Shown here: piece by piece, positions 21,044-32,404 of the stretch
Layout of the letters: each line of letters begins with the position of its first letter
Numbering within the stretch: position 1 is the stretch's first letter
DNA from: Myxococcota bacterium
GTDB lineage: Bacteria; Myxococcota_C; UBA6777
NCBI GenBank assembly: GCA_023150835.1
Contig: JAKLKB010000069.1
Coordinates: 1-32,572, forward strand
Reading direction: 5' to 3'
Length of the DNA stretch: 32,572 nt
Made by a program: the position numbers and the translations under genes
The notes under the pieces: generated by a model
The model's input: only the letters and a program-made list of their open reading frames with translations
Told to the model about the DNA's origin: nothing
The model's database searches: none

Positions 21044-23272
21044 ATGCAAAAGGCGCGATGGTTCGGGGTGTTTCTGTGTGTATGGGTTTGGACCCAATAC
21101 TCAGTTCAGGCGTGGGGCTATGGCGAAGACAAAGGGGCTTATCCCAACGTACAAGAGCGGATCAATCACTATCTGGTCAACCGCGCTCGCGTCGATCCGA
21201 ACCCTTACAAGGGGCAAAGCGACACCCAAACCTACACCATCCCCTACCGACCGCCCTATCGCTGGCACGAAAAACTCAACCACGTAGCGCGCTTTCAGGC
21301 GCAACACATCGGCGGTTATATGGGCGCAGGAAAAAACAGCGGCAAAGGCTGTTGGTGTAGTGACCACAGCTCTTGTTGCAAGCTGGGGGTAGTCAACAAC
21401 GAAGTCCAATGCACCGATGCCAACTGGGCTTGTGGTGCGACCACATGGGGAGCGCGTTGCCAGCTTTTTGGTGTGGGCTGTTCGGGCGAGAATATGTATT
21501 CTGGGGCGGGTGGGATATCTTCTTTTAAAGCGTGGGCGAATTCGTCAGGCCACTGGAAAAATATGATGGGCGGCTCGACTCACCTCGGCGTGGGGATCGC
21601 GAGTGGATCGGTCCAAAACTTCAGCGGCGGGGATCGTGGAACCTTTCCATTGTTTTCGGGGATGCACTTCAAGGAAACGGCGGCTTCCACAGGCCAGACA
21701 ACGACCTTTGGGATCGTCTTTTATCACGCCACCGAGGCCGTCGCGATCAGTCGCGTCGTATTTGCCAACGAATGCTACACAATGTACCGAAAACACGGCG
21801 TGGATGACAAACACGGAGCCTTTGAAACACAGCTTATTCTTCCATCCACAGGCTGCCAACGTTATGTGTTTCATGTACAAACCACCACAGGCCAGAGTTA
21901 TACGTATCCAAGCACAGGCTCTTTCGCGTTCAACGACGACGAGAAGTCTTGCCCATTTTGGTCCTCTCAAGCCCTCACACTGCCTGCCGCCTGCCAACAA
22001 GTCCCGCCGCCTTGTCAAGAGGGCGCAACACAGCCCTGTTATCCGGGGCCTGCGACGATCGCCGATGTAGGGATCTGCAAAAAAGGAACGCAAGTTTGCA
22101 AGGGCGGTCGATGGGGGGCTTGCACAGGCTTTGTGGCTCCAAGCAACGAGGTATGCGGAGACAACCTCGACAACAACTGCAACGGACAAGTCGACGAAAA
22201 TCCGCCATGCGAGTGCAAAACACAAGGCGAAAAGCGTAACTGTTATACAGGCCCCCCAAATACCCGAGGCATCGGCATCTGCAAAGATGGAACGCAAACC
22301 TGTTCCAACTTTCGTTGGGGAGCTTGCAGTGGAGAAACCAAGCCGCTGGCAACGGATTATTGCGGAAACAGCAAAGACGACAACTGCGACGGAACGGTCG
22401 ATGACGGATGTACGGGCTGCACAGATGGAGACAAGCGCCCTTGCGTCGATGGAGCCCCAACCAACGTGATCGGGATCGGCGAATGCAAGCCGGGCAGCCA
22501 GACCTGCACAGGCGGCGCATGGGGTCTTTGCCAAGGCATCACGCTGCCCAAGACAGAAGTCTGCAACGACAACAAAGACAACAACTGCAACGGCGTCCTC
22601 GATGAAAACTGCGCTTGCACCAAACAAGGCGAGACACGGCCTTGTTATGGGGGTCTTCCCAAGACCCAAGGCGTGGGGCCGTGTAAAGCGGGCGTACAAA
22701 CCTGCAATTCCCGATGGAGCACGTGCCAAGGACAAGTGCTCCCACGCAGCGAGATCTGCGGCAACCAAATCGACGACGACTGCGACGGCGTAATCGACAA
22801 CGGCTGCCCCACCGAGCCGACCACCGAAGTCACCACCGAACCCCAAAAAGAAGCCGCCACCGAGCCGATCGCGGAGCCTCCGCAAGAAAGCGTAGACGCG
22901 GATGCTTCCCCCCAAGAATCGGCTCCTTCCGACGAGACCACCCTCAACGACACCCTGCCGCTGCCCGATCCTGTGTCGGCGGAAGAAGACACCGAATCGC
23001 CACAACAAGACCAACCTCCACAAGACAACGGATCCGCTGACACGACGCAAACAACCGATACAACGCAACAAGACGCCTCCACAAACGAGGCCCCGTCCTC
23101 TGATCAAGGCGTACCCTCCGCTGGTTGTGGATGTCAAACATCGCCCTCTTCGTTTTCTTGGTTTACGTTGTGCCTACTGCTAGTTCTGTTTCGGCGTCGC
23201 GGCTTGCGTAGAAAGACCAAAACCAACAACCCAACGAACTCCAATCCACCCATCGGGACTTTCACGGCTTGA
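21044..23272 (+). CDS. Secreted CAP/SCP-domain protein with MopE-type repeats and MYXO-CTERM-like tail
   Basis: A 742-residue protein; the ATG follows GGAGG at 6 nt. A signal peptide ends near VQA (residue 23). Residues about 36-230 are a CAP (SCP/PR1) domain: ERINHYLVNRARVDPNPY, SGENMYSG with Glu149, and SGHWKNMM with His170; extra Cys residues form a CWC-CC loop. Residues about 324-600 hold four copies of a module: a C-x(4-8)-CY-GP/G-G...GxCK-GxQ-C block, then the MopE putative metal-binding motif (E-x-CGDNLDNNCNG-x-DE type). A Pro/Glu/Thr/Gln linker follows, then a tail from residue 694: GCGC, a hydrophobic stretch FTLCLLLVLF and RRRGLRRK, as in MYXO-CTERM sorting signals. An extra 19 residues follow the Arg cluster. 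CAP proteins have varied, often lipid- or protease-related roles. The 3' end overlaps the protease gene by 139 bp. Confidence 0.92.
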   Translation: MQKARWFGVFLCVWVWTQYSVQAWGYGEDKGAYPNVQERINHYLVNRARVDPNPYKGQSDTQTYTIPYRPPYRWHEKLNHVARFQAQHIGGYMGAGKNSGKGCWCSDHSSCCKLGVVNNEVQCTDANWACGATTWGARCQLFGVGCSGENMYSGAGGISSFKAWANSSGHWKNMMGGSTHLGVGIASGSVQNFSGGDRGTFPLFSGMHFKETAASTGQTTTFGIVFYHATEAVAISRVVFANECYTMYRKHGVDDKHGAFETQLILPSTGCQRYVFHVQTTTGQSYTYPSTGSFAFNDDEKSCPFWSSQALTLPAACQQVPPPCQEGATQPCYPGPATIADVGICKKGTQVCKGGRWGACTGFVAPSNEVCGDNLDNNCNGQVDENPPCECKTQGEKRNCYTGPPNTRGIGICKDGTQTCSNFRWGACSGETKPLATDYCGNSKDDNCDGTVDDGCTGCTDGDKRPCVDGAPTNVIGIGECKPGSQTCTGGAWGLCQGITLPKTEVCNDNKDNNCNGVLDENCACTKQGETRPCYGGLPKTQGVGPCKAGVQTCNSRWSTCQGQVLPRSEICGNQIDDDCDGVIDNGCPTEPTTEVTTEPQKEAATEPIAEPPQESVDADASPQESAPSDETTLNDTLPLPDPVSAEEDTESPQQDQPPQDNGSADTTQTTDTTQQDASTNEAPSSDQGVPSAGCGCQTSPSSFSWFTLCLLLVLFRRRGLRRKTKTNNPTNSNPPIGTFTA

Positions 23273-25731
23273 CAGCCTGCACGTTGAACTTGAGTCGGAC
23301 AATTCGCTCCTTCGCAAAGCGGTTGTGTAGAAGAGCAAGCGTTGTCTTTCCCGCAAGTGGCGGGTTGGAGGGCTTTTGATGTTTCAAGCCACGAAGTCAT
23401 CCCACCCTCTTGACAAACGCCTTGGTAACAAAGCGCTCCCTCCGAACAACCGCAATCTGTCGGGCAACTCTCGCAATCTTCGCCATAGGTACAGACGCCA
23501 TCCCCGCAGCGCGGCCCCTGCTCTTTTTGCAAACAGTAGCCCAAGCCGCCCGCTAAACCGCCTTGACAATGTTTTCCCTGCGGGCATCCATGCACCGTAG
23601 AGCACCCACAATACCCTTCTCCAACCCGTTCTCCCGCGATCACACAAGCCCCGCCTGTTTGTGCGCACCCGTCCGACGCTCCCCAAACACACGGTTCCAA
23701 GCACAACGAGCCTCGGCTGGTCGTCGCGCATTTGAGTCCTTGCGCGCATCCATACAATCCCCCACACGTTTCTCCGACTTCGCGGGGGCGGCGACAAACA
23801 CAGGCGAGACTATTGACATGGCAATCAACCTCTTTGTTTGCGTCTTTGCAGACGCTGCCTGCCAAACAGCCCACTTCGCCAAGAGACGGCGGCGGCGGCG
23901 CACAAGCTCCCAGTTCTTTGCGAAAGACACGTCGAAACAGATCTTTTTCGCAATGGCCTGTCTTACAGTCTTTGTCTTGATTGCATACGCAAGATCTTCC
24001 AACTCCTTTGATCTCAGCGCAACGCCCGCCTTGCGAACAATCCTGATCTGAGATACAGGTTTGTGCGAAACAAATAGGTGTCTGGTATCCCGCAACTTCG
24101 CGACAAAAACCGCCCAAAGCACAAGCCCCGTCTCGACAAAACGATCCCGGGATCCCCAACGATCGCTCCATCTCCTTTTTTGCAGGCAAGCCACACAACC
24201 GCTGGCAGATACGTTGGTTGTTGTGATCGTAAGCGCAGCGCAAACCGGGAGAACAAGGATGTTGATCGTCACAAGGCTGATCCAAATCTCGCCCTTTGCT
24301 GCGCTCGCAACGCCCAAAGCGACAGATCTGTGTGGCGGGGCAATCCCGATCGCTTTGGCAGCCGCACATCCCGTCGTTGGGTACACAAGAACGCCCACCC
24401 GCGATATCTTGGCAGCGAAAGCCCATCGGGCAATAAACATCTGCAACGCAATCCTGCAAACAGCGGGATGCTTCTTTGCCCAAACGCACGCACCGCTGCC
24501 CAACACCACACACTCCCCCTTCGCACGCTGCACACACCCCGACTTGAACGCTTAGAACGGGTGCAACACAACGCCCTTTCTCGCATCGCTCAACCGCACC
24601 ACAATCTGCATCTTTCTTACATACTTCTTCTTTACATAAGCCAGATATAGGGATACATTGGCGAACGCCGAAAAGCACACCACAAGCATAGTCTCGCGGA
24701 CACTCGTCTGCACCGCCGCAAGCCTGCAAACAACGCCGTCCTTCCGCCATGCGCGCACAGAGATTGCTGCCGCCACCACACTGCTGCGAGACACTACAAG
24801 GCCGACACAACGAAGGATGCGGAGCATCCATCACAAGCTCACAACGCCCCTGCGCGCAACGTGCGCCCGCGCCACATTCCGCATCTTGCTTGCAGGGTAG
24901 AACGGATTGCGCTTGCGTTTGCGTGATCCACGCTCGGTAAGTGTCGACACGAAACGCCACAGATGTCCCGTCACAACGAGCCTGCCCCCACTCGGTTCGT
25001 GTTCCCATCCCGTACGAAGCCACCGCGACCACTCGCCATCCGCCCTTTTCTTCCAACAAAACGCTACCACCCGAATCCCCATGACATGCACTTTTTCCCA
25101 CAGCATACCCCTCCAATCGATCCGAGGAAAGCTGTGTCATCGGCAAGAAGATCTCGTATCTTCGCAACGCATGAACTGGAAAAGGTTCCGTTTGCAACCA
25201 ACCAAACCCGATCCACCGCGTCTGCGTCCCCAACGCCACCCCATCCAACGAGCGAGACGACAACAACAACGGCGGTGTGTGCCGCACCATACGCTCCAAA
25301 AACAACAAGCCGATATCGTCTTGTGGGATCTTTCCGTCTTCGGCTGACCACGTCGGATAATTCACCGCCTTTTTCACCCGATAAAAAGCCTCCACACTCT
25401 CCTCGCCGACGTGTACACTCACCCGCCACTCCACCACATTTCCTGCTTTGTGCAAGCGCTGAACTTCTTCTGCGCAATGCGCTGCCGTCAGGATCGTTCT
25501 CGCTTCGATCAATGTACCCGAGCAAAAAGCCTGTTGGCGATGAACCACCAAAGCCCCCACCGCTTGATGCTCTCGTTCAAGCGTTCCTCCCAACAACCCA
25601 AACGATCGCTGCGCGGGTTCGCCCTCTTCCACCAAGGCCGAGCACCCCATCTGAAGCCCGATCGCACACCACAACCATGCCCAACACGCAAAAGTACCCA
25701 TGCGTCTCATGACACTTTTTGTACGCCCCAT
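23134..25731 (-). CDS. Trypsin-like (S1) serine protease with Dickkopf-like Cys modules and C-terminal sorting-like tail
   Basis: An 865-residue protein. The start at 25731 has a weak AAGAGA site; ATG at 25710 or 25701 is possible. The N-terminal signal ends around QMGC (Cys30), a poor lipobox, so lipidation is uncertain. Residues 48-272 are an S1 protease with intact triad: His85 in LTAAHC, Asp139 in QDDIGLL and Ser220 in CHGDSGG. Residues about 280-800 hold many Cys modules of the C-x3-D-x-(D/E)CG...C-x3-(G)RC type, resembling Dickkopf N-terminal modules found in myxobacterial exported proteins, ending with a CGDGVCTYGEDCESCPTDCGC block. The tail has Cys820, a hydrophobic LEFVGLLVLVFL and RKPRRR, then 18 extra residues. 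It is probably a surface-anchored protease. It converges on, and overlaps, the CAP/MopE gene. Confidence 0.92.
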   Translation of the reverse strand: MGRTKSVMRRMGTFACWAWLWCAIGLQMGCSALVEEGEPAQRSFGLLGGTLEREHQAVGALVVHRQQAFCSGTLIEARTILTAAHCAEEVQRLHKAGNVVEWRVSVHVGEESVEAFYRVKKAVNYPTWSAEDGKIPQDDIGLLFLERMVRHTPPLLLSSRSLDGVALGTQTRWIGFGWLQTEPFPVHALRRYEIFLPMTQLSSDRLEGYAVGKSACHGDSGGSVLLEEKGGWRVVAVASYGMGTRTEWGQARCDGTSVAFRVDTYRAWITQTQAQSVLPCKQDAECGAGARCAQGRCELVMDAPHPSLCRPCSVSQQCGGGSNLCARMAEGRRCLQACGGADECPRDYACGVLFGVRQCIPISGLCKEEVCKKDADCGAVERCEKGRCVAPVLSVQVGVCAACEGGVCGVGQRCVRLGKEASRCLQDCVADVYCPMGFRCQDIAGGRSCVPNDGMCGCQSDRDCPATQICRFGRCERSKGRDLDQPCDDQHPCSPGLRCAYDHNNQRICQRLCGLPAKKEMERSLGIPGSFCRDGACALGGFCREVAGYQTPICFAQTCISDQDCSQGGRCAEIKGVGRSCVCNQDKDCKTGHCEKDLFRRVFRKELGACAPPPPSLGEVGCLAGSVCKDANKEVDCHVNSLACVCRRPREVGETCGGLYGCAQGLKCATTSRGSLCLEPCVWGASDGCAQTGGACVIAGERVGEGYCGCSTVHGCPQGKHCQGGLAGGLGYCLQKEQGPRCGDGVCTYGEDCESCPTDCGCSEGALCYQGVCQEGGMTSWLETSKALQPATCGKDNACSSTQPLCEGANCPTQVQRAGCQAVKVPMGGLEFVGLLVLVFLRKPRRRNRTSSRHNVNQENEEGDV

Positions 25732-25801
25732 GACGCAATTCTCTTTCTACGCTTTTTTGCGATTTTTGACTGGATAGAGGCCCCTTGCCGACGCGGGTTT
25801 T

Positions 25802-25925
25802 GTGGGGTTTGACCCCACACCCCACAAGGGAGCTTTGCCCCCTTGACCCCGTATCGGCGGGGTGATCATTGGTTTTTCAAACAAACACCTCTGCCGCTTG
25901 AAGTGTCACGAACACGGCTTTTTTT
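25802..25925 (+). repeat. Dispersed repeat family A, copy 4
   Basis: A 124-bp copy: TGGGGTTTGACCCCACACCC, the central arm pair CAAGGGAGC and GCCCCCTTG, then GACCCCGTATCGGCGG, GGTTTTTCAAACAAAC, and the CGAACACGGC end with a T-run. It starts about 70 bp upstream of the protease start, pointing away from it, and may lie in that gene's leader or promoter region. Confidence 0.88.
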
Positions 25926-25930
25926 GGCTA

Positions 25931-26019
25931 CTGCGTAATACGAATAGGACTTACGCAGTTCGATACGAAAAAGGCCCCTGTTCGGGCGCGGGCGGTTCGC
26001 GAACCGCCCCTACAACAGG
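25931..26019. repeat. Nested inverted repeats between family A and family B copies
   Basis: Two perfect inverted repeats lie in series. CTGCGTAA (25931-25938) pairs with TTACGCAG (25951-25958). A 20-nt perfect palindrome built from GGGCGGTTCG and its complement lies at 25990-26009, with outer arms CCTGTT (25977-25982) and AACAGG (26014-26019). The second resembles the family B core (ends CCCCTAC). These may be remains of further small mobile elements. Confidence 0.75.
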
Positions 26020-26058
26020 TTGAGTCTTCACGGTTTCCTTTTTCAACCGCGTCACTCC

Positions 26059-26175
26059 TATACGAAATCCGCCCGTTGTCTGATCGTAAAGATGTAGGGG
26101 CAGCCCCCTGTGGCTGCCCAAGAATAGGGCACCTACGTACTCTCCGTTGTGCACACATCACACGGATCTCGTATA
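26059..26175 (+). repeat. Dispersed repeat family B copy (best preserved)
   Basis: A 117-bp element with 13-bp terminal inverted repeats (TATACGAAATCCG and CGGATCTCGTATA, 12 of 13 pairing) and the core GATGTAGGGGCAG...GGCTGCCC. It carries no gene. The flanking TA at each end would fit a TA target duplication, as made by IS630/Tc1-type transposases, but other copies do not show this. It lies 22 bp from the stop codon of the GGDEF/EAL gene. Confidence 0.9.
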
Positions 26176-26197
26176 AGTCTTACAAAAAGAGAAATAA

Positions 26198-28390
26198 TTA
26201 AACAGAACTTCTCGATAAACAAGGCAGATCCGAACCCGTAGGAGAAAGGCTGCTGGTCTGTAAAGCTTCAAAAGAGGCCACCTGTTCGGCAAGATAGGTT
26301 TCGGCCCGAACCAGCACGGAAGCATCGCCAACCGCCAAGGGGCGCGAGAAATAATAACCCTGCCCTGCGGTGCAACCATCTCTCAAAAGCAAACGTCGCT
26401 GATGTTCGGTTTCGATGCCTTCTGCGATCACGCCCATCTCCAGATGTTGCGCAAGAGACAAGATCATCCGCACGATCGAGCGCCCACCCTGCTCCTCCAA
26501 ACGATTCACAAAGGAACGATCAATTTTGATCACATCAACAGGGAATTGGTGGAGATAACTCAACGAAGAATAGCCCGTACCAAAGTCGTCCATACAGATC
26601 TCGATCCCGAACGCTCGCAAGCCCTTCAATATCTCCATCGCAAGCGCCATGTCCTCCATCAAGATGCTCTCTGTGATCTCGATCTTTAACCAATCGGGCG
26701 ATATCTCGGTCTCTTGAAGCAATCGCCGCATACGTTCGAGAAGATGGGGCGTCGCAAGCTGCTTGCTCGAAAAATTCACATGAACAGCCAAGTCTTTTCC
26801 TTGTTCTCTGCCTTGGTTCCAGAACGCGATCTGACGACAAGCCTGCTCCAACACCCACCAGCCGATCTTGATGATCGCCCCCGACGACTCCGCAAGCGGG
26901 ATGAATTCGACAGGCGACACAAACCCCCTTGAGGGGTGCATCCAACGCAGCAACACCTCAAATCCTTGCAACAACCCGCTTTGCAACGAAACCAAGGGCT
27001 GGTACACCAACGAGAGTTCTCCTCGTTCGCATGCTTCCCAAAGATCACGTTCCAACTGCAAGCGCGCACGCAGTTTTTGCTCCGCCATGAAGTCGAACAG
27101 ATGAAAGCCCCCGTTGCGTTCTTTTTGTGCTTGACGCAACGCAAGGTCTGCACATCCCAACAGATCCTCGGCAGTACGGCATTTTTCGTGGTGCTGCGCG
27201 ATTCCGAAACTCACGCTTGGATGGGCATGGCAAGATTCGATCTGGAAAGGTTCGGACAAGGCTTTTGACCATTCTCTTGCGGTCTGCAAAAGAGCTTCTT
27301 GCGAAGCAACATCACGCACGAGCACCGCAAACTCATCGCTGCCGACACGGCCAAGCAATGCCCCCGTCTGTGCGCTCTTTCCCAAGCGGCTGGCGATCTC
27401 CTGCAAAAAGCGATCACCCACCGAAAATCCGTAACTATCGTTGATTTGAGAAAAACGATCGATATCGAACAGAAAAAGCGCGATCTGTCTTCCAACAAGA
27501 ACGGCCTCGCGCCATTCTTCACGCAATGCCTCCAAAAATGCCTCGCGATGCAAAAAGCCCGTCAGCACATCGCAACGTGCGCGGAATGTCAAATGTTGCT
27601 CCGTTGGCATCCGACGCACCATCGCCATCATCGTCCCGATCATCCGAAGCGGTTGCTGCTGCGCATCGCGAAGACACATCCCTCGCATCTGAACCCACAC
27701 ACGCCGCCCGTCTTTGCGCAAAAACCGCGTTTCGTAAAAGAAAGAAGGCTCCTTGGCTTCCCATGCCCCCCACATCACATGCTGCAACGACTGCCGCTCA
27801 TCTGGATGCACCAACAACAACCATTGTTGCCAAGTCAACCCACTCAACTCTCCCGTTTCATACCCGAGCAGGCGCTCGCAACCTGTATGTAAGCTTAATT
27901 TCCCTGAAACGCAGTCCCATTCCCACAAATTGTCTTCTGCGCTTTGTGACAAAAGTTCTCTTGTTTGTTTGATCTTTTTTTGATCGCCTTCTAGGGCATG
28001 GTATCGCACCAAAGAATCCAACAACAAGCGCATCGAGTCTTCGGTCATCCGCTCCAGCGACACTCCCACCGCTACCTTTGACCACACAGAGCGCGGAATA
28101 TGCTCGGCTTCTGACAAGTCCAACAAAACCAACGATATCGCGCCACGATGGGCTGCGCAAAACGTATGAAGGCGGGCATAATCAAACAAAGCATCCGGCC
28201 ACAAAAAAATCGCCAAATGATGCGCTTCTCTCCACTTTTCTTCTCTTTCCAAACGATCCAGATCGCAAAAAAGAACCTCGCGACCACTCTCTTTGGGCCA
28301 CAATACCATCAATTTTCGGAAATGTGCTGCGTCTCTCCCCAAAAACACGGATGGAAATCGCGCTGTATGACTCTGATGTGCCTTGGACAT
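26198..28390 (-). CDS. PAS-GGDEF-EAL c-di-GMP signalling protein
   Basis: A 730-residue cytoplasmic protein; the ATG at 28390 follows GGAG at 9 nt. Residues 1-130 lack a clear family; the alternating hydrophobic strands (AIFLWPD, SLVLLDLSE, KVAVGVS) look like a degenerate receiver. A short helical linker leads to a PAS/PAC domain (about 150-258, WEWDCVSGKLSLHTGCERLLGYE). The GGDEF domain (about 275-430) has Asp309 in FDIDRF, but the signature reads GSDEF (350-354) and there is no RxxD inhibitory site five residues before it. The EAL domain (about 445-690) keeps all catalytic ligands: Glu478 (EVL), Asn539, Glu571, Asp601, Asp602, Lys622, Glu657 and Gln677. It is therefore very likely an active c-di-GMP phosphodiesterase; cyclase activity is uncertain. 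It is divergent from a PilZ receptor gene. Confidence 0.95.
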   Translation of the reverse strand: MSKAHQSHTARFPSVFLGRDAAHFRKLMVLWPKESGREVLFCDLDRLEREEKWREAHHLAIFLWPDALFDYARLHTFCAAHRGAISLVLLDLSEAEHIPRSVWSKVAVGVSLERMTEDSMRLLLDSLVRYHALEGDQKKIKQTRELLSQSAEDNLWEWDCVSGKLSLHTGCERLLGYETGELSGLTWQQWLLLVHPDERQSLQHVMWGAWEAKEPSFFYETRFLRKDGRRVWVQMRGMCLRDAQQQPLRMIGTMMAMVRRMPTEQHLTFRARCDVLTGFLHREAFLEALREEWREAVLVGRQIALFLFDIDRFSQINDSYGFSVGDRFLQEIASRLGKSAQTGALLGRVGSDEFAVLVRDVASQEALLQTAREWSKALSEPFQIESCHAHPSVSFGIAQHHEKCRTAEDLLGCADLALRQAQKERNGGFHLFDFMAEQKLRARLQLERDLWEACERGELSLVYQPLVSLQSGLLQGFEVLLRWMHPSRGFVSPVEFIPLAESSGAIIKIGWWVLEQACRQIAFWNQGREQGKDLAVHVNFSSKQLATPHLLERMRRLLQETEISPDWLKIEITESILMEDMALAMEILKGLRAFGIEICMDDFGTGYSSLSYLHQFPVDVIKIDRSFVNRLEEQGGRSIVRMILSLAQHLEMGVIAEGIETEHQRRLLLRDGCTAGQGYYFSRPLAVGDASVLVRAETYLAEQVASFEALQTSSLSPTGSDLPCLSRSSV

Positions 28391-28449
28391 GATCGAACAC
28401 TCCTACCTTTCCGTTCCTTGTGAAGGCAAAATATTGTAACGATTGATAA

Positions 28450-28466
28450 ACACACGATCTGTGTGT
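28450..28466. promoter_or_regulatory. Inverted repeat in the divergent c-di-GMP promoter region
   Basis: ACACAC and GTGTGT are separated by GATCT, about 60 bp upstream of the GGDEF/EAL start. Its place between divergent genes makes it an operator candidate for one or both. The pattern is low in complexity, so chance is possible. Confidence 0.3.
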
Positions 28467-28610
28467 CGTGCAACTTTCTTCATCGCTTACAACTATACGC
28501 CCACTTCGTACCAACCTTGAGACCTTTACCTTTTTTTTGCTGCCCCCTTTAGGTTTTGTGATGGCTTCCGTTTCCCTTTGGTTGAGATGCTCAAGATCAT
28601 ACGACCCAGA

Positions 28611-28650
28611 AAAGAAAGTCTCTTTATTCTTCAACAAAGAAACTTTCTTT
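28611..28650 (+). promoter_or_regulatory. Leader hairpin just upstream of the PilZ gene ribosome site
   Basis: AAAGAAAGT (28611-28619) pairs perfectly with ACTTTCTTT (28642-28650). After one C/A mismatch, TCTTT (28621-28625) pairs with AAAGA (28636-28640), leaving a 10-nt loop. The AAAGGA ribosome site at 28655-28660 follows after 4 nt. It is not followed by a T-run, so a terminator is unlikely. It could tune translation or mRNA stability. Confidence 0.5.
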
Positions 28651-28671
28651 ATTCAAAGGAAAGATACGATC

Positions 28672-29991
28672 ATGAACGCCATGTTATCGATTCCTCATTC
28701 GTCGGCTTCCGAAATGATTGAGAATGCAAAAGAAAACGAAAAGATCACCCCCTTTGCGCTGGGGTGGTTGCTTGAACGTGCAGCATCCTTGCAAGAACCA
28801 AAAGAAAAAATCTCTACTTTTTCGGCTCAAAGACGCCAATTTTACGATCGTTACCGCAGCCTTGAAAGCTACCCGTCGCTTGATCCATTGGGTATGCAAA
28901 CGATGCACAATATGCTTTTGCGGGTCTTTGCGGAACCCCACAATTTGCCCGATCAATACACGCATCTCGAAGCGATGTACCAAGAAGAACTTAAGCGACT
29001 CCAAGGTCAATTTGAAAAGACAGTTCAATGCCTCGCCCGCTGGGCAGAAGTCAGCGATGAGTTCCGTCACCGCGTCCACCTGCTCGACTCCCTCGACATC
29101 CGCTTGGCTCTATTGGAACAAAAACGTGCTGTTACCGAAAAAGCCCAAGCTGCTGAAAAAGCCCAAGCTGCTGAAAAAGCCCAAGCTGCTGAAAAAGCCC
29201 AAGCTGCTGAAAAAGCCCAAGCTGCTGAAAAAGCCCAAACTGCTGAAAAAGCCCAAACTGCTGAAAAAGCCCAAACTGCTGAAAAAGCCCAAGCTGCCGA
29301 GCGCATTCGATTGCAATTTCCCCCGTTGCAGCGCCCCCCAAACGAAAACAACGTCGTGGAGTTGTGGAATAGCCAACCGCAGGATACGTTGCCCGATCTT
29401 CCTGCTGTGCCGACGATCATTATGAAAAACCCCTTGACAGCGCGCCAAAGAACGCCCTTCCCGAACGCAGCCGCCCCTTCGTTGCCTCATGTTCAGCCGC
29501 TCCATCCTCCCAATGCCCCGCATCGCATTGTGGAAGAGGCCCCAAAGCCGATGTCTTGCGCCGCTCAAGAAGCCTCAAAGCTGATGCCTCGTGCTGCTCA
29601 AGGAGCGACAGAAGCGACCGCTGCAGCAAACCGACGAACCGCACCGCGTTTGCGCCTTGCAACCGATATCATCGTCGGCCAAGAAGACCACTGCTTTTTT
29701 ACGGGTTTTTCTGAAAACATCAGTTCGGGCGGGATCTTTATCGCGACTTATGAGCAACTGCCCCAAAGAGGCTCGACTTTTGAGCTACGGTTTGCCCTTG
29801 CAACGGGCGAAAACATCCACAGCGAAGTCGAAGTGATGTGGATTCGAGACTTTAACGAGCAAACACCGGATATCTCACCCGGTTTTGGCTGCCGTTTCCT
29901 TCGACTTTCCCCAGAGGATCAAGAACATATCGACCGCTATATCGCCAAGGAAGGCTCCCTCTTTATGCTTCAAGACGAAGACCTCGCTTAA
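28672..29991 (+). CDS. PilZ-domain protein with a nine-fold hexapeptide repeat
   Basis: A 439-residue protein. The ATG at 28672 is preceded by AAAGGA at 11 nt; the frame opens at 28468, but that part would encode the leader hairpin. Residues 1-155 are helical and charged, without a family I recognise. Residues 156-209 are nine EKAQ(A/T)A units, predicted as a long, highly regular charged helix or coiled coil. A Pro-rich linker (about 215-318) follows. Residues about 320-432 are a PilZ domain of the myxobacterial TIGR02266 type: Arg322 and Arg326 (RxxxR), and Asn349, Ser351 and Gly354 (NxSxxG), so c-di-GMP contacts are intact. It is probably a c-di-GMP effector. It is divergent from the GGDEF/EAL gene and 32 bp ahead of a small companion gene. 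The output partner is unknown. Confidence 0.92.
   Translation: MNAMLSIPHSSASEMIENAKENEKITPFALGWLLERAASLQEPKEKISTFSAQRRQFYDRYRSLESYPSLDPLGMQTMHNMLLRVFAEPHNLPDQYTHLEAMYQEELKRLQGQFEKTVQCLARWAEVSDEFRHRVHLLDSLDIRLALLEQKRAVTEKAQAAEKAQAAEKAQAAEKAQAAEKAQAAEKAQTAEKAQTAEKAQTAEKAQAAERIRLQFPPLQRPPNENNVVELWNSQPQDTLPDLPAVPTIIMKNPLTARQRTPFPNAAAPSLPHVQPLHPPNAPHRIVEEAPKPMSCAAQEASKLMPRAAQGATEATAAANRRTAPRLRLATDIIVGQEDHCFFTGFSENISSGGIFIATYEQLPQRGSTFELRFALATGENIHSEVEVMWIRDFNEQTPDISPGFGCRFLRLSPEDQEHIDRYIAKEGSLFMLQDEDLA
29137..29298 (+). repeat. 18-bp in-frame tandem repeat, 9 copies
   Basis: Nine contiguous 18-bp units (GAAAAAGCCCAAGCTGCT type) encode EKAQAA. Units 1-5 are identical, units 6-8 share one change (GCT to ACT, giving EKAQTA), and unit 9 ends GCC. 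The near identity suggests recent copy-number change that keeps frame and lengthens a helix. Confidence 0.98.
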
Positions 29992-30023
29992 AGAGAACAC
30001 AACACACCGAAAGGACAACCACC

Positions 30024-30467
30024 ATGAATCACCTTTCCGAATCTCCCAACGCGATGCAAGTTCTCTTTTTTGAAGAAGAATCCTTGACGCCATCTCAAGA
30101 GCTTTTCTCCAACAACGAGTCGGACACTCAACACGCCGCCCACTCGCAAGAGGGCGATCCCGCTCAAGACGACGAACAAGCGCGTGCGCTGAATCGAAGC
30201 TATCACCCTCAATTTGTGCGAAAAACCTCTGTTCGTGTCCGTGTTCTTCTTGTGAACGGAAAGAAGTGCATCGGAAACTGCCATGTGCTTTGGCCAGATG
30301 GTCGTGTCAGCGACGTCGTGAACGATGATCGACAATTCTTGATCATCACCGATGCTTCGATCGAAGGCGAAAACCAATCCTACAGCGTCCTCACCCTGAA
30401 CAAGTCCCAGATCGCCATGCTCTTTGAGATCCACAACAAAGCCAACGTGATCCAAGAACTCGCTTAA
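30024..30467 (+). CDS. Small conserved-looking protein co-transcribed with the PilZ gene
   Basis: A 147-residue protein; the ATG follows AAAGGA at 8 nt and lies 32 bp after the PilZ gene stop. Residues 1-62 are acidic and look disordered. Residues about 66-140 form a compact beta-rich domain: VRVRVLLVNGKKCIGNCHVLWPDGRVSDVVNDDRQFLIITDASI. This follows the pattern of small proteins with a 'G-x-RLSD-x-LN...F-x-x-LTDA' core (DUF6812-like); that link is by pattern memory only. No membrane segment, signal peptide or catalytic motif is seen. Context suggests a partner or output element of the c-di-GMP block. It converges with the beta-lactamase-fold gene, leaving 16 bp between stops and no visible terminator. 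Confidence 0.82.
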   Translation: MNHLSESPNAMQVLFFEEESLTPSQELFSNNESDTQHAAHSQEGDPAQDDEQARALNRSYHPQFVRKTSVRVRVLLVNGKKCIGNCHVLWPDGRVSDVVNDDRQFLIITDASIEGENQSYSVLTLNKSQIAMLFEIHNKANVIQELA

Positions 30468-30483
30468 CGCCCAAGCAGAAAGC

Positions 30484-32154
30484 TCAATAACACATCGCAG
30501 GGATCGCCTTGTCCACGTTGTCGTGTGCGATGTACGTCATCCCATCGCGCCGATAGAGATAGACGCCGTTTCCAGTCCCCGAGCGCGCATCAAAAAACAC
30601 CCGAACCTGCCGCCCGCCAAGGATCATCAAGCGCCCTGCTTCGGTATGCTTTGCAGGAAGCTCCGCCACCACGCGCAACGTCTGCGCATTTTGGACGACC
30701 AAAAACGCGCCTTGTGTGCGCTGCTCGATGCGATAGGCAAAGGGACCATGCCCATGTTCAGGCAAGCTCCGACACCGCAAGACCGCGCCGTGAGGCTCGA
30801 TCGGAAGTGCGCTCGGTGCAGGAGTTTCGGTGTGAAGCCCTGTCGCAAAGATCGAAAACAGCCGTTGCAAAGCCAAATAAGCGCGCTGCCCGCCATACTC
30901 GCCTTTTCCTAGCACAAAGAACGAAAACTCTCGTCCCCCCTTGAAATGAGGCAAGCAGACATAACCGCCATACGCCCAATCCCCGTCTCCCGCGCCGATC
31001 TTCCCATAGATCCGCCATCTTCCTTGGGTCCAACCATCCAACTGCTGTTGCGTCGGCAAAGCCTCCGTAAACACCGAGCGGATCCCAAGGTCGTACATCA
31101 TCCCTCCGATTTTTTTACTTTCTTGATCCGTATCCCCATAAAACATCATCAACAGATCTTCGGTTTGGACGGTCGGCAACCATGTGTGGTGCTGTGCGCT
31201 GCGATACGAATTCCCCAAGGCTGCGCCTTCTGCGCGATAGCCGTAGCTTTCCACCTCTGCGCCTTGCTTGCGCCCCTGCGGCAACAGGCGGATATCTCGG
31301 TAATTGACGCCGATCCGTTTCCAAAACTCCGCCATCGCCAACGGTGTCAGATGGTTGGGCGTGATGTGCATCGCCGAGGTATCGAGTTCCACCGACGCTC
31401 CCCCATCCAACCGAGGGATCCGATAATAAGGATCGAAGCCGCGATCTCCGTAGTACCCGTTAAACTCCTCGGTCGGCAAGGACAACCAGCCGCGTACAAA
31501 CGAGGTCGCGTTGAGCGAGCCACCGTCTGGAGCGCCCAACCCCGCAAGATGTTTGAACAGGCCGCCCGAAGTGTTGCTGCTGCTTTCATGCAACGCATGG
31601 ATATGATGCCCAAACGGATAACGCCCCAACAGATCATCGCTGATCATCGACGAGGCCCCAACCAAGCCTTCGGACAACAACCGCATACGATGCAACGCTG
31701 CAAAGGCCGCCAACACCTTTGTCGAAGACCAGTTTTGCCCCTTGGTGTGTTGCGTTCCGTTTCCATAATAATGGTAGTGCGGTACGCCTCCCACATTGCG
31801 CACATCCACCACCACCGCGCTTAACAACGAAGCGGGTGACCCCAACAAGCCATCCAACGCCGTCCACGAAAAGCCCTTTTGTCGCGGCCAATCCGTACGA
31901 CTGTAGTCGATTTCCTTCGAAGAATAGTACTCACGCGCAGCCCCTCTCAACCAACCTTCTCGAAACATCCGCGTCTTGGACTGATCAGGCAAAACACACT
32001 GCACGCTCCGCGTCCCCATCGCATCCCGAGGCACAGGAAAGCTCTCCACCGCACGCACTTGCACGCCCGATTCTTCGGCTTGGCCGCACGCCAACACGCC
32101 CACCCACAAACCTACACACCACAACCACACACACCGATTCTTGCTTTGTCTCAT
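30484..32154 (-). CDS. Lipoprotein with beta-lactamase/penicillin-binding-protein fold motifs
   Basis: A 556-residue protein. The ATG at 32154 has GAGGGG just upstream; a GTG at 32178 is possible but less likely. The signal ends VLAC with Cys23. The three motifs of serine beta-lactamase/DD-peptidase folds are present in order and at plausible spacing: SSTK (Ser143, Lys146), SSN (Ser192, Asn194) in ESSSNTSGG, and KIG (Lys385) in IYGKIGAGDGDWAYGGYV, a variant of the usual KTG. The stretch between the second and third motifs is long and rich in Tyr and Gly. The final 100 residues are beta-rich and lie outside the fold. It may be a peptidase, esterase or lactamase-like hydrolase at the envelope. 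Antibiotic resistance should not be assumed. A strong promoter and an inverted repeat lie upstream. Confidence 0.82.
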   Translation of the reverse strand: MRQSKNRCVWLWCVGLWVGVLACGQAEESGVQVRAVESFPVPRDAMGTRSVQCVLPDQSKTRMFREGWLRGAAREYYSSKEIDYSRTDWPRQKGFSWTALDGLLGSPASLLSAVVVDVRNVGGVPHYHYYGNGTQHTKGQNWSSTKVLAAFAALHRMRLLSEGLVGASSMISDDLLGRYPFGHHIHALHESSSNTSGGLFKHLAGLGAPDGGSLNATSFVRGWLSLPTEEFNGYYGDRGFDPYYRIPRLDGGASVELDTSAMHITPNHLTPLAMAEFWKRIGVNYRDIRLLPQGRKQGAEVESYGYRAEGAALGNSYRSAQHHTWLPTVQTEDLLMMFYGDTDQESKKIGGMMYDLGIRSVFTEALPTQQQLDGWTQGRWRIYGKIGAGDGDWAYGGYVCLPHFKGGREFSFFVLGKGEYGGQRAYLALQRLFSIFATGLHTETPAPSALPIEPHGAVLRCRSLPEHGHGPFAYRIEQRTQGAFLVVQNAQTLRVVAELPAKHTEAGRLMILGGRQVRVFFDARSGTGNGVYLYRRDGMTYIAHDNVDKAIPAMCY

Positions 32155-32278: not shown

Positions 32279-32404
32279 GCAAAAAAACAACATAAGTCAG
32301 TATCGCTTGATTTTTGTAACTTTGGTGCTTGAGCAGCAAGGTTCTTCGGGGTCCGTTCAAACCAACGCCATGAGAGAGGTATCAAGATGCAACACATTTC
32401 AGCC

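Follow-up and report, generated by a model that had tools for sequence, protein, structure and literature searches.

Convergent genes and their C-terminal tails

The window (the whole analysed stretch of DNA, 32,572 bp, from genome G000) carries two convergent genes with overlapping 3′ ends. The plus-strand gene (positions 21044–23272; 742 aa) encodes a CAP/SCP-like and MopE-repeat surface protein, with a CAP-like N-terminal part, MopE metal-binding motifs and a MYXO-CTERM tail; the minus-strand gene (23134–25731; 865 aa) encodes a trypsin-like protease with Cys-rich repeats and a tail that, as judged from the tails of its homologues, is MYXO-CTERM-like and divergent. Both ORFs and their translations were checked by frame, and the overlap of 139 bp (23134–23272) given in the initial annotation was found again on both strands. 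It exceeds 60 bp, and both proteins have homologues and Pfam domains. When the overlap sequence was searched in genomes G000 to G004, no further copies were found.

The two frames are in phase 123:213, in which codon position 1 lies opposite position 2 of the other strand's codon, and a Cys codon of each tail stands at the bounds of the overlap. As annotated before, the plus-strand stop codon TGA (23270–23272) has base 23272 in common with the Cys820 codon of the protease (23272–23274). A second shared base, absent from that annotation, lies at the other end: base 23134 belongs to the minus-strand stop codon TGA (23134–23136) and to the Cys697 codon (23132–23134) of the plus-strand motif Cys695-Gly-Cys697 (23126–23134), and this stop is read over Cys697-Gln698 (TGT CAA). 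The overlap thus spans exactly from signature cysteine to signature cysteine.

The Arg clusters RRRGLRRK of the plus-strand protein (23192–23215) and RKPRRR of the protease (23191–23208, minus strand) had been placed on the same bases, which is correct for 23192–23208. Both proteins run 18 residues past their clusters (about 18–19 in the first count). A hydrophobic stretch had also been described for each frame of the overlap; both are present, but not on common bases, each being antisense to the post-Arg extension of the other gene. That of the protease tail (GGLEFVGLLVLVFL; 23209–23250, minus strand) is antisense to the plus-strand extension.

The C-terminus of the plus-strand protein contains a Cys motif, a helix and an Arg cluster (AGCGCQTSPSSFSWFTLCLLLVLFRRR) and continues for 23 residues beyond the HMM match. 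It is a MYXO-CTERM tail by the curated cut-off of TIGR03382 (15.85 bits), against which 18.0–19.0 bits were obtained. With TIGR03901, the model proposed earlier as a check on both tails, the cut-off of 20 bits was narrowly missed (18.1–18.9 bits); the G001 orthologue scores 21.6 bits, above that cut-off, and dozens of tails in G000 are matched by the same model. The minus-strand tail was matched by neither TIGR03901 nor TIGR03382 at E 10, with or without its extension, so that of the two window tails only the plus-strand one reaches a curated MYXO-CTERM cut-off. On a local profile made from 52 local tails (lowest own score 30.8 bits) the minus-strand tail scored 7.6 bits, and the best of 2000 shuffles 8.5 bits.

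Other features of the minus-strand tail point to the family. Its spacing from Cys to Arg (ca. 21 residues) is like that of real tails, and it aligns to the MYXO-CTERM tail of the closest paralogue, L014, with a Z score of 7.2. All 17 protease homologues with complete tails that were inspected end in MYXO-CTERM, and homologues of this gene normally end just beyond RRR; an orthologue, sought for its native stop codon, was not found in five genomes of the phylum. From these similarities the tail is taken as a divergent, perhaps decaying, MYXO-CTERM, which, given both HMM failures and the low score on the local profile, may not be a working tag.

The Cys motif, the single hydrophobic helix and the Arg cluster are shared with the MYXO-CTERM/MrtX tag (TIGR03901, TIGR03382; PMC11980579), of which G000 has many members. 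The window differs from it in the 18 residues beyond the Arg cluster on both proteins and, in the protease tail, in the single Cys, the Glu within the helix and the missing HMM match. That such tails normally end at the Arg cluster, as had been assumed, is true of the median (3 residues after the HMM match in 39 other MYXO-CTERM tails of G000), although extensions of 12, 16, 22 and 69 residues also occur; a long post-Arg extension is unusual, not unique. The lack of a stop codon after the tag also recalls internal MYXO-CTERM in fused ORFs, for example, Myxococcus xanthus MXAN_5598 (PMC11980579); there the fusion is to a second protein on the same strand, whereas the extension in the window is antisense. 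Fusions resembling the MXAN_5598 type, in which the ORF runs on from an internal MYXO-CTERM into a signal-peptide or lipoprotein-like segment and a second protein, were seen at L110 (G000:C81; conserved in G001), L097 (G000:C70:54000-55000), L064 (G001:C358) and L093:12573-14201.

Comparison with the sister genome

The locus was compared with that of G001 (MAG KLAP109; same genus, 86 % complete), the sole other genome found with an orthologue of the plus-strand gene; a CAP-domain search of genome contigs for a third species returned KLAP109 only. The plus-strand gene is 93 % and its hydrolase neighbour 98 % identical between the two genomes, and among the phylum genomes compared both genes are limited to this genus. 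About 90 bases before the plus-strand tail (23048–23139) are identical to G001, and their flanks differ by several percent.

DNA identity to G001 is about 95 % through position 23199 and is gone from 23200, within the third Arg codon (junction 23199–23200; similarity past this point is not significant, though a junction as far as ca. 23211 is possible). A match past 23199 (TTGCGTAG/TTCGTAG), which would have meant stop loss by frameshift, was rejected, since 93 of 400 random segments aligned equally well. The G001 protein ends in LLLVLFRRRSS*, a canonical tail with the stop codon right after the Arg cluster. Beyond the junction, G001 has a spacer of about 115 bp with a dispersed repeat, and then the hydrolase gene, which corresponds to window position ca. 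30486. In place of this spacer the window carries a segment of about 7.3 kb (23200–30485) with the genes for the protease, a GGDEF/EAL protein, PilZ1 and PilZ2 (23134–30467), all missing from the G001 site. Save for the dispersed repeat, no DNA match to the segment genes was found elsewhere in G001 among the matches listed, and a search of the G001 spacer for remnants of the segment gave only short matches to that repeat.

Because homology to G001 ends inside the Arg cluster and resumes at ca. 30486, the overlap sits, as judged from this alignment, on a rearrangement junction that one of the sister genomes has and the other lacks. The initial annotation had suggested the loss of a spacer and of both stop codons between convergent genes. 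Its account of the stop codons agrees with the comparison, in which the plus-strand gene of G001 stops normally after its Arg cluster and the protease homologues stop after RRR; the difference between the genomes, however, is a four-gene segment and not a small spacer deletion. Relatives with one frame broken and the other conserved had been named as evidence against a tail sequence serving both genes. G001 comes close to this: there the plus-strand frame is unbroken, whereas the antisense frame is part of no gene.

It is very improbable that a sequencing or assembly artefact (an indel or a chimeric join) took out the stop codons. The window is a contig of a 239-contig assembly, and published long overlaps are mostly prediction or sequencing errors: of 178 convergent overlaps longer than 60 bp, 124 were judged to be errors and 54 possibly real (PMC2478687). 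A chimera would, however, need two false joins back to the same locus. Both edges of the segment return to sequence that is adjacent in G001, which makes a chimeric contig or misassembly appear unlikely, and de Bruijn assemblers are not known to join on a match as short as the one of about 8 bp. The Arg tract could still contain a small indel.

Three further observations concern the neighbourhood. A dispersed, partly palindromic intergenic element (25790–26175) has more than 40 matching places in G001; Rfam gave no match over the window, this element included. In the linker of the PilZ-like gene PilZ1 (28468–29991) the hexapeptide EKAQAA is repeated in tandem. At the site corresponding to 32293–32294, G001 has one gene more than the window, a trypsin/MYXO-CTERM fusion (L064:1811-5198); members of this protease family thus turn over near the locus.

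With the plus-strand gene and the hydrolase confined to the genus, the junction has no outgroup; with one relative carrying the locus, either state may be ancestral. PilZ2 is present in one copy in G002 and G003 and is missing from G001 and G004, and in G003 relatives of PilZ1, EAL and PilZ2 all lie within 9 kb of one another. This copy number and clustering suggest that the ancestor of the genus probably had EAL, PilZ1 and PilZ2 somewhere, not necessarily at this locus. Either the segment was gained or re-joined in G000, or it was deleted in G001, or a longer spacer lost one part in G000 and another in G001; whichever route was taken, one sister genome has the overlap and the other does not.

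An overlap ancestral to the genus, followed in G001 by deletion of about 7.3 kb from the Arg cluster to the hydrolase stop codon with gain of a new stop codon and spacer, is conceivable, if rather unlikely. The closeness of the three relatives in G003 is in its favour, and a single-copy PilZ2 that is absent from G001 fits a deletion there, though in a genome 86 % complete the gene may have gone unassembled. The G001 ending RRRSS* has every appearance of a canonical tail, although the edge of a random deletion would not have to produce one, and the lack of a segment remnant in the G001 spacer also speaks against it.

Coding geometry of the overlap

In phase 123:213 an Arg codon CGN lies opposite an Arg codon CGN, and codons for Leu, Val and Phe lie opposite codons for Ser, Arg, Thr, Asn and Lys. 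The latter pairing accounts for the polar post-Arg extensions of the two proteins (KTNNPTNSNPP and NRTSSRHNVNQ), and, given the former, no special selection has to be invoked for the twin Arg clusters. Tails were joined in silico by using the 39 native MYXO-CTERM tails of G000, which were paired tail-to-tail and joined at a point within the first three codons of the Arg cluster; a twin cluster was scored where at least four of eight residues were K or R on both strands. Such clusters arose in 74 % of the joins in phase 123:213; for the two remaining phases the values were 0.9 % and 5.1 %. Both extensions were 30 residues or shorter in 10.7 % of the joins in the observed phase. In these joins a twin Arg cluster comes almost automatically with phase 123:213.

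The stop codons follow from similar geometry. In this phase TGT-CAA (Cys-Gln) gives TGA on the opposite strand, so that each frame ends at the Cys-Gln of the other tail. An antisense TGA over TGT-CAR at the signature Cys was found in five of the 39 native tails as well as in both window tails; its occurrence in both is a modest coincidence. If the G001 form of the plus-strand tail is the older, the RRR part of the protease cluster (23191–23199), which lies on bases conserved with the plus-strand gene of G001, would be the antisense of that gene's own Arg codons, and GLRRK of the plus-strand protein would derive from sequence beyond the junction.

Selection might be thought to keep the overlap, either by a common tail that couples both surface proteins or by antisense RNA from the convergent transcripts that co-regulates them. 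The symmetry of the Cys-to-Cys geometry is suggestive of this, as are the missing intergenic spacer and an overlap free of terminator-like sites on the plus strand. The symmetry is, however, explained by phase and codon choice, terminator-like sites are confined to the minus strand and near shuffle expectation, and the overlap is not conserved in G001; we therefore give selection very little credence. The earlier proposal of a constraint that one tail, under selection, would place on the other is weak as well: the Cys and helix of each tail are antisense only to the post-Arg extension of the other, which has no known role, and Arg-on-Arg is a property of the phase. Nothing was found to indicate that the overlap has a function of its own.

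Proposed origin and significance

The pair is probably a young, lineage-specific convergent overlap that arose by rearrangement and was tolerated since the residues after the cysteine are discarded. According to the published model, MYXO-CTERM proteins are lipidated at the Cys, after which MrtX cleaves off the helix and the Arg region (PMC11980579); MrtX cleavage and surface display of both window proteins are putative, by analogy. The junction would have fallen where the 3′ end of the CAP/MopE gene encodes Arg, so joining the protease gene to it tail-to-tail. Both genes would then have lost their own stop codons and been read antisense through the other's tail, up to the TGA over the other's Cys-Gln codons, and CGN read as CGN on both strands would have left each tail an Arg cluster for free. 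As the part after the cysteine would be a disposable membrane anchor, 18 extra residues, presumably cytoplasmic and discarded with it, should cost little, and the Arg cluster would be about the least harmful place for a tail-to-tail fusion. We infer that both tails are processed, that their extensions are tolerated and that the overlap as such has no function.

The window pair belongs to the known class of long convergent overlaps; its geometry is unusually tidy. For most of the possibly real members of this class, conservation does not reach beyond very close species, and cases of stop loss with 3′ extension are known among them (PMC2478687); convergent overlaps are often in phase 123:213, long ones even more often (PMC2174442). 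The pair resembles these (PMC2478687, PMC2174442) in its length above 60 bp, its 3′ extension, its presence in one of two close relatives and its phase. It differs in that both genes are extended and both ends are sorting-type tails.

The locus is a clear example of the way in which two convergent genes may come to overlap at length in one step and harmlessly, where the ends are disposable and the codons read well both ways. The rule of Arg on Arg and Cys-Gln over stop is also a caution against inferring selection from symmetry between antisense motifs. Among the matches listed in G000 to G004, no further tail-to-tail MYXO-CTERM pairs were seen by eye, and none of 11 G000 tails inspected had a second, antisense sorting tail. 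A broader reading, which we consider doubtful, is that MYXO-CTERM tails are "self-complementary" in phase 123:213: any two genes with such tails, once joined tail-to-tail, could give each other an Arg cluster and a stop codon, so that rearrangements between tails would be unusually survivable and may recur. If this holds, recurrent tail-to-tail joins would be a route by which the genes for surface proteins are shuffled.
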